DNA of 64,000 nt from Microbacterium galbinum (GTDB taxonomy: Bacteria; Actinomycetota; Actinomycetes; Actinomycetales; Microbacteriaceae). The position numbers and the translations under genes are program-made. The DNA lies in assembly GCF_023091225.1 (NCBI RefSeq), contig NZ_JAHWXM010000001.1, forward strand, positions 124,001-188,000, given 5' to 3'. The stretch's first letter is position 1. Each line of letters starts with the position of its first letter. Shown here one piece after another: positions 1 through 5,164 of this stretch. A model generated the notes under the pieces. That model saw only the letters and a list, made by a program, of their open reading frames with translations. It did no database searches and was not told where the DNA came from.

Positions 1-409
1 CGTCGAGACCAAACAGGCGATCGAGTCCGATCGCACCGTCGCCGGCATCCTGGAGGAGGCCGCCGACGCGCAGGCCTTCCTGTTCACGGCCGGTCCGTGC
101 GACGCCTCCTCGGCGCACGTCGAGAACGGCTACCTCAGCGCCGAAGACGTCGATGAGCTCGCCCGACGCGGAGCCGTCGGAGACGTGCTCGGCCGCTACG
201 TCGATGCCGAGGGCAACATCGTCGACGCGAAGCTCGACGCCCGTACGGTCGGCGTGAGCCTCGACCGCCTGCGCGGAGCGAAGAAGGCGATCTTCGTCAC
301 CGCCGGCCCCGCGAAGCATGACATCGCCCGCACCGTCGTCACCAGCGGCCTGTGCGGGGTACTGGTGACAGATGAGACCACAGCACGAGCATTGTTGGAG
401 GAACGATGA
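1..409 (+). CDS. SorC/DeoR-type sugar-binding transcriptional regulator (3' part)
   Basis: The reading frame is open from the window edge and ends at 409; the DNA-binding N-terminus lies outside. The visible part is the C-terminal effector-binding domain of SorC-family regulators, with segments such as LFTAGPCDASS and AIFVTAGPAKHDIART. Members of this family bind phosphorylated sugars and control the adjacent catabolic operon. The stop codon overlaps the deoC start (ATGA at 406-409), so regulator and enzymes are probably co-transcribed. By position the effector is probably deoxyribose-5-phosphate, as for the DeoR that controls deoxynucleoside use in Bacillus; that is inference. Confidence 0.8.
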   Translation, partial: VETKQAIESDRTVAGILEEAADAQAFLFTAGPCDASSAHVENGYLSAEDVDELARRGAVGDVLGRYVDAEGNIVDAKLDARTVGVSLDRLRGAKKAIFVTAGPAKHDIARTVVTSGLCGVLVTDETTARALLEER

Positions 410-1407
410 CGACCAATGAACTGACCCGCAGAACGGCGGTGGACGTGCTCGGCGGAGATCCCGACGACGCGACGCTCCGCCGCTTCCTGCACGGCCTCCC
501 CGGCGTCGACGCCGTCGGCCTCGAGCAGCGCGCCGCGGGCCTGGGCACGCGATCGATCAAGACGACGTCGAAGGCGTGGGCTCTCGACACGATCATCAAG
601 CTGATCGACCTCACCACTCTCGAGGGGGCCGACACCCCCGGCAAGGTGCGTTCTCTGGTCGCCAAGGCCAAGAACCCGGATGCTGCGGACCCCACGACCC
701 CGAAGGTCGCCGCGGTGTGCGTCTACGGCGACATGGTCGGAGACGCGGTGACCGCACTCGGTGCCCTGCACGGCGATCCCGACGAGGGGCTGATCTCGGT
801 CGCCGCCGTCGCGACGGCGTTCCCGAGCGGCCGTTCGTCGCTCGAGATCAAGCTCGCCGACACGGCCGAGGCCGTCGCCGCCGGAGCCGACGAGATCGAC
901 ATGGTCATCGACCGGGGAGCATTCCTCTCCGGGCGCTACGGGATCGTGTTCGACCAGATCGCGCGCGTGAAGGAAGCCTGCCGCCGCGAGGACGGCAGCT
1001 ACGCCTCGCTCAAGGTCATCCTCGAGACCGGTGAGCTGAACACCTACGACAACATCAAGCGGGCGTCGTGGCTCGGCATCCTCGCGGGTGGCGACTTCAT
1101 CAAAACCTCGACCGGAAAGGTGCAGCCGGCGGCGACTCTCCCGACGACGCTACTCATGCTCGAGACGGTGCGCGACTGGCACCGCGCGACCGGCGAGAGG
1201 ATCGGTGTGAAGCCCGCCGGCGGCATCCGCTCCTCGAAGGACGCGATCAAGTATCTCGTCACCGTCGCCGAGACCGTGGGGGAGGAGTGGCTCCAGCCGC
1301 ACCTGTTCCGCTTCGGCGCCTCGAGCCTCCTCAACGACGTGCTGCTGCAGCGTCAGAAGCTCACCACCGGCCACTACTCCGGCCCCGACTACGTCACGAT
1401 CGACTGA
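406..1407 (+). CDS. deoC: Deoxyribose-phosphate aldolase
   Basis: This enzyme splits 2-deoxy-D-ribose 5-phosphate into acetaldehyde and glyceraldehyde 3-phosphate, the last step of deoxynucleoside breakdown. At 333 residues it belongs to the long form, with about 70-100 extra N-terminal residues compared with the short bacterial type. The Schiff-base lysine is K233 in FIKTSTGK, the second active-site lysine is K269 in GVKPAGGIR, and the active-site aspartate is probably D165 in EIDMVID. The start overlaps the regulator stop. The two aldehyde dehydrogenase genes that follow would oxidise the acetaldehyde produced here. Confidence 0.95.
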   Translation: MTTNELTRRTAVDVLGGDPDDATLRRFLHGLPGVDAVGLEQRAAGLGTRSIKTTSKAWALDTIIKLIDLTTLEGADTPGKVRSLVAKAKNPDAADPTTPKVAAVCVYGDMVGDAVTALGALHGDPDEGLISVAAVATAFPSGRSSLEIKLADTAEAVAAGADEIDMVIDRGAFLSGRYGIVFDQIARVKEACRREDGSYASLKVILETGELNTYDNIKRASWLGILAGGDFIKTSTGKVQPAATLPTTLLMLETVRDWHRATGERIGVKPAGGIRSSKDAIKYLVTVAETVGEEWLQPHLFRFGASSLLNDVLLQRQKLTTGHYSGPDYVTID

Positions 1408-1421
1408 CTGGGATACGCAAA

Positions 1422-2864
1422 ATGTCATTTCTGGAATACGCCCCCGCGCCGGAATCCACGGCGCTGCTGAACCTCAAGGACAGCTACGGCCTCTTCATCG
1501 ACGGTGAGTTCGTCGACGGATCCGGCAACAGCTTCACCACCATCTCGCCCGCGACCGAGAAGCGCATCGCCGAGATCGCGACCGCGAGCGATGACGACGT
1601 CGACCGCGCCGTCGCCGCTGCACGCCGTGCCTACGAGAAGACGTGGTCGCGGATGAGCGGTCGCGACCGCGGCAAGTACCTCTTCCGCATCGCCCGCCTC
1701 GTGCAGGAGCGCGCCCGCGAGCTCGCCGTGGCCGAGAGCCTCGACAACGGCAAGCCGATCAAGGAGAGCCGTGACGTCGACGTGCCCCTGGTCGCCGCCT
1801 GGTTCTTCTACTACGCCGGGTGGGCCGACAAGCTCGATCACGCCGGCCTCGGCGCGAACCCGCGTGCGCTTGGCGTGGCCGGTCAGGTCATCCCGTGGAA
1901 CTTCCCGCTGCTGATGCTCGCGTGGAAGCTCGCCCCTGCTCTCGCGGCAGGCAACACGGTCGTGCTGAAGCCCGCCGAGACGACGCCGCTCACCGCGCTG
2001 ATCTTCGCGGAGATCCTGCAGCAGGCGGACCTGCCCGCCGGTGTCGTCAACATCATCACCGGTGCCGGGCCGACGGGCGCGGCCCTCGTGCGCCACCCCG
2101 ACGTCGACAAGGTCGCCTTCACCGGTTCGACCGGCGTCGGCCGCGACATCGCGAAGGCGGTGGCCGGCACGAACAAGAAGCTCACGCTCGAACTCGGCGG
2201 CAAGGCCGCGAACATCGTGTTCGACGACGCGCCGATCGACCAGGCGGTCGAGGGGATCGTCAACGGCATCTTCTTCAACCAGGGGCACGTGTGCTGCGCC
2301 GGAAGCCGCCTGCTCGTGCAGGAGTCGATCCACGACGAGGTCATCGACCGGCTCAAGACGCGCCTGTCGACGCTGCGTCTGGGCGACCCGCTCGACAAGA
2401 ACACCGACATCGGCGCCATCAACTCCGCAGCCCAGCTGGCACGCATCCGCGAGCTCAGCGACATCGGCGAGGCGGAGGGCGCCGAGCGCTGGACCGCGGA
2501 CTGCGCGATCCCGGAGAAGGGCTTCTGGTTCGCCCCGACGATCTTCACCGGCGTCGAGGCCTCGCACCGCATCGCGCGTGACGAGGTGTTCGGCCCGGTG
2601 CTCTCGGTGCTGACCTTCCGCACGCCGGCCGAGGCGATCGCCAAGGCCAACAACACCCCTTACGGCCTCTCCGCGGGCATCTGGTCGGACAAGGGATCGC
2701 GCATCCTCGCCGTCGCCGACCGCCTGCGCGCGGGCGTGGTGTGGGCGAACACGTTCAACCGTTTCGACCCGTCGAGCCCGTTCGGCGGATACAAGGAGTC
2801 CGGTTACGGCCGCGAGGGCGGCCGCCAGGGTCTCACCGCCTACCTGAAGGGATCGGCAGCATGA
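1422..2864 (+). CDS. Aldehyde dehydrogenase, catalytically complete (ALDH16-like N-terminal half)
   Basis: A 480-residue NAD(P)-dependent aldehyde dehydrogenase. The cofactor-binding segment VVLKPAE and FTGSTGVG, the general base E257 (LELGGK) and the catalytic cysteine C291 (NQGHVCCAGSR) are all present, and the C-terminus NPFGGYKESGYGREGG is the usual ALDH end. The start at 1422 lies 14 bases after deoC; a longer frame upstream only overlaps deoC. The stop overlaps the start of the next gene (ATGA at 2861-2864). Downstream of DeoC the natural substrate is acetaldehyde, giving acetate. Substrate is inferred from context. Confidence 0.9.
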   Translation: MSFLEYAPAPESTALLNLKDSYGLFIDGEFVDGSGNSFTTISPATEKRIAEIATASDDDVDRAVAAARRAYEKTWSRMSGRDRGKYLFRIARLVQERARELAVAESLDNGKPIKESRDVDVPLVAAWFFYYAGWADKLDHAGLGANPRALGVAGQVIPWNFPLLMLAWKLAPALAAGNTVVLKPAETTPLTALIFAEILQQADLPAGVVNIITGAGPTGAALVRHPDVDKVAFTGSTGVGRDIAKAVAGTNKKLTLELGGKAANIVFDDAPIDQAVEGIVNGIFFNQGHVCCAGSRLLVQESIHDEVIDRLKTRLSTLRLGDPLDKNTDIGAINSAAQLARIRELSDIGEAEGAERWTADCAIPEKGFWFAPTIFTGVEASHRIARDEVFGPVLSVLTFRTPAEAIAKANNTPYGLSAGIWSDKGSRILAVADRLRAGVVWANTFNRFDPSSPFGGYKESGYGREGGRQGLTAYLKGSAA

Positions 2865-3712
2865 GCAAGCGACTGACCGTGCCGAAGACGTACAAGCTGG
2901 CGATCGGCGGCGCCTTCCCGCGCAGCGAGTCGGGACGCACCTACGAGGTCGTCTCACCGAAGGGAGCCTTCCTCGCGAACGCGGCGCAGGGTTCGCGTAA
3001 GGACGCCAGGGATGCCGTCGTCGCGGCGCGTTCCGCGGTGAAGGGCTGGTCGGGCGCCACCGCGTACAACCGCGGCCAGGTGCTCTACCGCGTCGCAGAG
3101 GTGCTCGAGGGCCGTCGCGCGCAGTTCATCGATGAGATCGTCGCCCAGGAAGGGCTGTCGGCATCGGCCGCAGCCTCGCAGGTCGACGAGGCGATCGACC
3201 TCTGGGTCTGGTACGCGGGATGGTGCGACAAGTACGCGCAGGTCGCCGGCAACGCGAACCCCGTGGCGGGTCCGTACTTCAACATCACCGTTCCCGAGCC
3301 GACGGGTGTCGTCGCGATCGTCGCACCGCAGGACTCGGCGCTGCTCGGTCTCGTCTCGGTCGTGGCACCGGCGCTCGTCGCGGGCAACACGGTCGTCGTG
3401 ATCGCGAGTGAGCGGCATCCGCTGTCGGCCATCAGCCTCGCCGAGGTGCTCGCGACCAGCGACGTGCCCGGCGGCGTGGTGAACGTGCTCACCGGCTCGC
3501 CGGCCGAGATCGCGCCGTGGCTCGCCTCGCATCAGGACGTGAACGCGCTCGACCTCGCGGGTGCCGGTGCGCTCGAGTGGGTCGACCTGCAGATCGCGGC
3601 CGCCGAGACGCTCAAGCGCGTGGTCGCGCCGGGTGAGGTCGTCGCCTCGCCCGAACGCATCGCGGCGTTCACCGAGGTCAAGACCGTGTGGCACACCAAG
3701 AGCATGATCTGA
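2861..3712 (+). CDS. Truncated aldehyde dehydrogenase-like protein without catalytic cysteine (ALDH16-like C-terminal half)
   Basis: A 283-residue protein with the ALDH N-terminal and cofactor-binding region (LAIGGAFPRSESGRTYEV, EPTGVVAIVAP, LVAGNTVVV, GGVVNVLTG) that then jumps to a short C-terminal tail (AFTEVKTVWHTKSMI). The segment that would carry the Glu base and the catalytic Cys is absent, and the usual FTGS motif reads LDLAGA. Codon use and reading frame are intact and the gene overlaps the full ALDH by ATGA, so it does not look like decay. Two-domain ALDH16 enzymes join an active ALDH domain to a second, catalytically degenerate one; this pair (480 + 283 residues) looks like that arrangement split in two. 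A structural partner role is inferred. Confidence 0.8.
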   Translation: MSKRLTVPKTYKLAIGGAFPRSESGRTYEVVSPKGAFLANAAQGSRKDARDAVVAARSAVKGWSGATAYNRGQVLYRVAEVLEGRRAQFIDEIVAQEGLSASAAASQVDEAIDLWVWYAGWCDKYAQVAGNANPVAGPYFNITVPEPTGVVAIVAPQDSALLGLVSVVAPALVAGNTVVVIASERHPLSAISLAEVLATSDVPGGVVNVLTGSPAEIAPWLASHQDVNALDLAGAGALEWVDLQIAAAETLKRVVAPGEVVASPERIAAFTEVKTVWHTKSMI

Positions 3713-3732
3713 TCCGACCTGATCCGATTTCT

Positions 3733-3778
3733 CGACGAAGGGCCGGTTCGCAGGATGCTGCGGGCCGGCCCTTCGTCG
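3733..3778 (+). terminator. Hairpin terminator after deoC-ALDH operon
   Basis: A 14-bp perfect stem (CGACGAAGGGCCGG at 3733-3746 pairing with 3765-3778) with an inner five-base-pair stem (3749-3753 with 3758-3762). It begins 20 bases after the last stop codon. No T-run follows, as is common in this GC-rich group. Confidence 0.75.
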
Positions 3779-3851
3779 TGTCGAGCGCTCCGAACCGAGG
3801 CTCTCTGACACGGCCCCTGTCCCAATGCGTCCCGGTGTCCGATGCAGAGGT

Positions 3852-3857
3852 TAGGCT
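3852..3857 (+). promoter_or_regulatory. -10 box (TAGGCT) of clpX
   Basis: TAGGCT lies 38 bases before the clpX start codon and downstream of the operon terminator, so clpX probably has its own promoter. A clear -35 was not found. The ribosome binding site AGGAGGA is at 3884-3890. Confidence 0.45.
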
Positions 3858-3895
3858 CGAAGCACGATCTCTGGATCCCCCATAGGAGGACGCGC

Positions 3896-5160
<1,265 letters not shown>

Positions 5161-5164
<4 letters not shown>

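Follow-up and report, generated by a model that had tools for sequence, protein, structure and literature searches.

The window analysed here is a stretch of 64,000 nucleotides from the genome of Microbacterium galbinum (contig NZ_JAHWXM010000001.1, positions 124,001 to 188,000 of the forward strand), near the start of which lie two overlapping genes for proteins related to aldehyde dehydrogenases (ALDHs), referred to below as the N-half and the C-half. They belong to a cluster encoded wholly on the + strand in the order regulator, deoC, N-half and C-half, in which the first two and the last two genes overlap by ATGA, and, as argued below, the two halves probably represent a split version of ALDH16. 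The parts of the cluster are the following:

1..409, + strand: 3' end of the gene for a SorC-type (sugar-binding) regulator (PF04198, 193 bits)
L321:11384-12409: the whole regulator gene (341 residues), which overlaps deoC by ATGA
406..1407, + strand: deoC, long-type deoxyribose-phosphate aldolase of 333 residues (TIGR00126, 158 bits; cut-off 117.3)
1422..2864, + strand: N-half, catalytic ALDH subunit of 480 residues (554 bits to the bacterial ALDH16 6mvr)
1899..1901, + strand: codon of Asn160, the oxyanion-hole Asn of ALDHs (alignment and conservation)
1968..1970, + strand: codon of Lys183, the Lys binding nicotinamide adenine dinucleotide (NAD) (alignment and conservation)
2190..2192, + strand: codon of Glu257, the general base (translation, alignment and conservation)
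2292..2294, + strand: codon of Cys291, the catalytic thiol (translation, alignment and conservation)
2861..2864, + strand: ATGA overlap of the N-half stop and the C-half start (read in the sequence; 52 of 68 actinobacterial junctions overlap), probably reflecting translational coupling
2861..3712, + strand: C-half, a separate protein of 283 residues corresponding to the non-catalytic C-terminal domain of ALDH16
3251..3301, + strand: oligomerisation-flap strands, C-half residues 131-147, at which the N-half has about ten residues fewer
3671..3697, + strand: C-terminal strand with EVKTVW, C-half residues 271-279, to which the N-half end has no counterpart

Coordinates, lengths and the overlap of the two halves are as the first-pass annotation of this DNA had given them, and Glu257 and Cys291 lie at the codons listed above. 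Among PDB sequences, both halves find their best solved relative in a bacterial ALDH16: the N-half aligns with residues 11-477 of 6mvr at 554 bits, the next other molecule reaching 427 (a margin of 127 bits), and the C-half scores 195 bits against 115 for the next other molecule (a margin of 80 bits). A closest relative outside ALDH16 was looked for in the same sequences and did not appear; among the NCBIfam models listed, none exceeded its cut-off for either half. The relationship to ALDH16 that had been proposed at first pass is strongly supported by these matches, as it is by the shared anatomy and the paired trees described below.

Judged from its sequence, the N-half is catalytically complete, keeping both the catalytic and the NAD-binding residues. 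It carries Asn160, Lys183, Glu257, Cys291 and Glu388, and Asn160, Lys183 and Cys291 recur in 85/85 split and 143/143 fused N-half rows, with Glu257 present in 85/85 and 142/143, respectively (in these residue counts the split rows take in the loci L294 and, for the C-half, L170, to which we return). Its earlier description as a full ALDH holds for catalysis and is otherwise slightly too strong: in alignments with the C-half, the oligomerisation flap of the N-half lacks about ten residues, and its matches to canonical ALDHs end early, e.g., at 487 of 500 in 1zum.

The C-half matches the Pfam Aldedh profile only over positions 4-232 of 461. Its predicted structure (predicted local distance difference test 90.5; predicted template modelling score, pTM, 0.88) spans canonical ALDHs from the first to nearly the last residues; since no more than about 270 of their roughly 490 residues are paired in this full-span alignment, the start and tail are kept and the middle is missing, which bears out the claim that the second protein lacks the catalytic segment. 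Lys is found at the Lys position in 0/90 split rows and in none of the 148 fused rows printed (of 149), and Glu or Asp occupies the Asn position in 47/90 split and 115/149 fused rows, Asn being kept in 6 fused rows. The median length of the flap linker is 14 residues in split and 12 in fused N-halves, against 25 and 22 in the respective C-halves; a K-[TNSD]-[VIL]-W tail is seen in 79/90 split and 140/149 fused C-halves, and in 0/85 and 0/143 N-halves. The C-half is best read as a Rossmann-like domain in which NAD binding and catalysis are gone and the oligomerisation flap is retained. An alignment of 66 C-halves, which share 34-94% identity with that of the window, has 35 invariant columns. 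A gene model named for the insect Bradysia odoriphaga (P0121) has 92% identity to the window C-half and is probably bacterial contamination.

The two halves travel together. The nearest homologs of the C-half bear Microbacterium names, and the phylum sampled is accordingly taken to be Actinomycetota. In 296 genomes of this phylum, a C-half was called from 257 bits upwards (the next score is 127) and an N-half at E 1e-165 or better. Of these genomes, 71 have the C-half, 69 the N-half and 68 both; they are found together in 68 of the 72 genomes with either, and the four exceptions lie at contig ends (C-half only in G211, G267 and G287, N-half only in G135). At 71 loci, the window included, the N-half lies within 500 nucleotides upstream on the same strand in 68, four of these being partial at contig ends. 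It stands about 1.4 kilobases (kb) upstream in L053, and L096 and L099 start at a contig end; in these three, as in L220, there is no N-half within 500 nucleotides. In L053 (G028), another open frame of about 1 kb on the same strand lies between the two. With start codons taken as those nearest the alignment start, the junctions of the 68 loci measure -4 in 28, -8 in 15, -1 in 8 and -11 in 1, as well as 0 to +2 in 6 and 25 to 235 in 9, with one unreadable (L059). None of these 68 loci has a continuous frame through both halves (in L059, from G117, the N-half is broken by frameshifts in that assembly and is not fused). In a single assembly, G241:C17:53242-54672 shows an N-half or linker with an in-frame stop or frame break. 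Within the split rows, N-half and C-half distances are correlated (r 0.83, with 0/999 permutations as high), as expected for genes that travel together.

Elsewhere among bacteria, the same parts are often joined. When named genomes were scanned with an alignment of C-halves that had an alphaproteobacterial sequence at its head, 585 relatives emerged, of which the best 80 were kept; because that sequence headed the query, this set leans to fused forms. By their titles they come from Pseudomonadota, Gemmatimonadota, Chloroflexota, Bacteroidota, SAR324, Myxococcota and Acidobacteriota, and in 79 of these best 80 both halves share one open frame, the N part of the remaining one, L170, being interrupted; the script counted it as split. 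L102 (Phyllobacterium) was called fused by the script, yet its N part spans two frames. L131, titled Nocardioides marinus and kept among the 80, has a fused ALDH16 placed among Ruegeria-type sequences, and is probably misnamed or contaminated, or else holds a transferred gene. Phylum surveys around three of the 80 loci, which are less selected than that set, found relatives in 23/249 Pseudomonadota genomes (23/23 loci fused), in 53/151 Chloroflexota genomes (of 40 loci examined, 17 split, 22 fused and one without an N-half) and in 71/101 Gemmatimonadota genomes (of 30 loci examined, 25 fused and 5 split, one of the latter being L294, from G741, which belongs to the fused clade and has a linker interrupted by a stop codon). 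In a protein collection, near-complete N and C parts stand in one chain in at least 51 proteins (among 120 listed of 649), mostly at 53-86% identity to the window among those listed, the aligned parts being separated by 4 to about 100 residues; single proteins of this kind are uncertain, since some entries are frameshift products.

Trees rooted on ALDHs from the source genome itself separate the two arrangements. FastTree, run on 228 N-halves and 239 C-halves, supports the split clade at 0.998 (N) and 0.958 (C), and the fused clade at 0.955 and 0.956. On subsets, IQ-TREE gives for the N-halves a split clade (100/98) with 26 of 27 split rows, the 27th being L294, and for the C-halves a split clade (97/86) and a fused clade (100/97), again with L294 in the fused group; the two clades come out as sisters, in trees whose outgroup branches are long. 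The split clade is made up of Actinomycetota, some Chloroflexota and some Gemmatimonadota, and the window halves fall outside the fused ALDH16 clade as sister to it. A restriction of the split form to Actinomycetota was considered and rejected, as the Chloroflexota and Gemmatimonadota split loci join one clade with it.

The aldolase gene is a regular companion. The window deoC matches its nearest solved deoxyribose-phosphate aldolases (DERAs, 250-267 residues) only from query residue 56-63 onwards, and so bears an N-terminal extension of about 50 residues. In 62 of the 68 actinobacterial split loci, a deoC is present no more than 1.3 kb upstream on the same strand; four of the other six are cut by contig ends, and deoC stands at 1.9 kb in L049 and about 2.6 kb in L041. 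The same holds for 76 of the best 80 named loci, three being cut and L122 lacking it. The annotation of Nitratireductor thuwali likewise reads deoC, aldehyde dehydrogenase (794 residues), RbsD/FucU. On two Rhizobiales plasmids an RbsD/FucU-family gene follows the ALDH16 gene (L101:6897-7349 and L102:6984-7439). The link to deoC made at first pass is strongly supported, and extends to fused ALDH16 loci, being weaker in Chloroflexota.

The companion is moreover a particular type of DeoC. While 219 of the actinobacterial genomes have some DeoC match, the long type (249 bits or more) is found in 71, and it is present in 69 of the 72 ALDH16 genomes, the other three being contig-end cases without any DeoC match. 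Only G073 and G127 have it without ALDH16, and there deoC ends near a contig end; among the 148 genomes with only lower-scoring matches there is no ALDH16 genome. The co-occurrence has a Fisher's P of 4e-61, a value that ignores shared ancestry. Because the score gap is narrow, the line between types was drawn by identity (at least 52% against at most 49% for untruncated matches): G256 and G277 have long-type pieces at contig ends below the 249-bit line, and the next full-length match, in G279, reaches 240 bits at 48% identity. The extension is conserved in both the split and the fused clade (135 sequences), two Arg positions and one Lys position being invariant in the 58 loci of the split and the 76 of the fused type. 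Actinomycetota thus have two or more DeoC types, the long one accompanying ALDH16 and the others not. One in-frame stop was seen in each of several medium-identity DeoC matches: G279, G172, G151, G095, G252 (TGA) and G091 (TAG).

The source genome as a whole has a single deoC (threshold E 1e-5) and, besides the N-half, eleven further ALDHs, each with at most 43% identity to the N-half. The four genes are flanked by what we take, from the sequences themselves rather than from a family search, to be two clpP-like genes and clpX (window 1-5164, L321:10063-12409).

The explanation that we regard as probable is that the window encodes a split ALDH16, in which a dead subunit completes the assembly of a catalytic one and acetaldehyde derived from DeoC is oxidised to acetate. 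DeoC would cleave deoxyribose 5-phosphate to acetaldehyde and glyceraldehyde 3-phosphate. In ALDHs at large, a Cys attacks the aldehyde, a hydride passes to NAD and a Glu-activated water releases the acid. Here Cys291 would attack the aldehyde and, after hydride transfer to NAD, Glu257 would activate the water that yields acetate, while the C-half would supply the flap and take the place of a second protomer. The overlapping genes would most likely be translated into an N2C2 assembly, each C subunit replacing the second ALDH protomer, and the role of the C subunit would mirror that of the C-terminal domain within the fused ALDH16 chain. The complex, acetaldehyde as its substrate and the containment of that acetaldehyde, all put forward at first pass, are on this account things that we infer, together with the stoichiometry and the product; what the data themselves show is how the genes are built, related, conserved and paired, their linkage to deoC, the two clades and, as a prediction, the fold of the C-half. 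CoA-acylating (coenzyme A) acetaldehyde dehydrogenases lack the general-base Glu, and a reaction of that kind is disfavoured here because Glu257 is retained in all 85 split N-halves. A model of a fused relative (P0130) has a pTM of 0.62 and places the N and C parts relative to each other without confidence; ALDH16 is absent among the 50 whole-chain matches listed for it, which is no proof of absence.

Several observations weigh against this explanation. In the same alignment, the ALDH paralogs of the source genome have 8-23 linker residues (median 15), and a loose form of the tail motif occurs in only 2/11 of them. This comparison weakens the argument from complementary loss, so that the N-half being short where the C-half is complete rests instead on the alignments with ALDH1L1 and ALDH16, the alignment of N-half with C-half, and the early end of the N-half against solved ALDHs. 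As a sample, the 80 named loci are selective, and in Chloroflexota the deoC linkage amounts to only 20/39 loci (10/17 split, 10/22 fused). The paralogs and the selected set lowered our confidence, if only by a hair's breadth. The Chloroflexota loci, with L122, also speak for a different substrate, deoC being merely a neighbour of an enzyme for another aldehyde, the more so as many ALDHs are promiscuous; we consider this distinctly unlikely, since the adjacency recurs in both clades and several phyla and involves a specific DeoC type.

That same specificity could be taken further. DeoC, N-half and C-half may form one acetaldehyde-channelling assembly, in which the C-half or the DeoC extension docks the aldolase so that acetaldehyde would reach Cys291 without being set free: one long DeoC, rather than any DeoC, accompanies ALDH16, and its extension is conserved in both clades. 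Yet operon linkage alone would explain the co-inheritance, and the extension could serve DeoC itself, so that the proposal seems unlikely to us. Equally doubtful is its general form, with ALDH16 across bacteria as the dedicated acetaldehyde-oxidising partner of the long DeoC, its dead C-half or C-domain both completing the dehydrogenase and docking the extension in a channelling complex of three proteins; were it true, acetaldehyde from DNA sugar would stay unreleased, and animal DERA and the pseudoenzyme ALDH16A1, a link drawn from general knowledge, would be relics of the same pair. Since it is made separately and has neither catalytic nor NAD residues, the C-half might instead be an independent regulator or adaptor outside the ALDH assembly, as the extra frame in L053 could also hint. 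We hold this to be very improbable, because the same domain is covalently joined to the N part in the fused clade, fused chains are also found at split-clade identity, and the halves co-occur in the 296 genomes bar contig-end cases. That decay has left the second gene as a mere piece of an ALDH, as its missing catalytic segment might imply, is scarcely conceivable given the 35 invariant columns and a family extending across phyla; chance and decay were rejected on this conservation, with 71/296 genomes at 257 bits or more and a gap down to 127.

If the split ALDH16 is what we propose, its interest lies in several directions. The recurring deoC-ALDH16 order in bacteria provides a concrete substrate hypothesis for ALDH16, and the adjacency of deoC to split and fused versions alike suggests a purpose for a puzzling family. 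The split form may also be seen as a natural experiment: one can take the dead half away, put it back or vary its amount relative to the catalytic half, none of which is possible with a fused chain; this would show how a pseudoenzyme domain can complete the assembly of an enzyme.

A parallel might be struck with DmpFG, a channelling pair of an aldolase and a CoA-acylating dehydrogenase, in that an aldolase and a dehydrogenase are encoded together; the aldolase of the window is a different one and its ALDH is of the hydrolytic type, with Glu257. An ALDH16, for its part, would be expected to form a dimer that mimics the classical ALDH tetramer. In the deoK-deoC pathway, DeoC yields acetaldehyde and glyceraldehyde 3-phosphate, and the relevant passages of PMC6365646 name no dehydrogenase for the acetaldehyde; the window encodes one beside deoC. 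Among the papers listed in searches of open-licence literature, and in portions of PMC8160307, PMC10650815, PMC6365646 and PMC9007349, neither a split ALDH16 nor a deoC-ALDH16 link is mentioned. Human ALDH16A1, set beside the window by description only, is likewise an ALDH16-type protein; according to the sections of PMC10650815 at hand, it lacks catalytic residues, unlike the window N-half, and its oligomeric state and substrate are given as unknown in the review table. The closest known system is the bacterial ALDH16 of Loktanella sp. (PDB 6mvr/6mvs/6mvt/6mvu, via parts of PMC8160307 and PMC10650815), 6mvr being the best sequence match of both window proteins. The window has in common with ALDH16 an N-terminal ALDH domain that is catalytic and has both the Cys and the Glu, and a dead cofactor-binding domain with the flap and without a catalytic domain, and it shares with the fused relatives the deoC neighbourhood. 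It differs in using two genes in place of one chain and in belonging to a sister clade rather than nesting within the fused one; because its genes are two and overlapping, it is filed as a split sister clade and not as a standard ALDH16. The ALDH16 family itself is already known; its occurrence as two proteins, and its repeated association with one DeoC type, did not come up in the literature covered.
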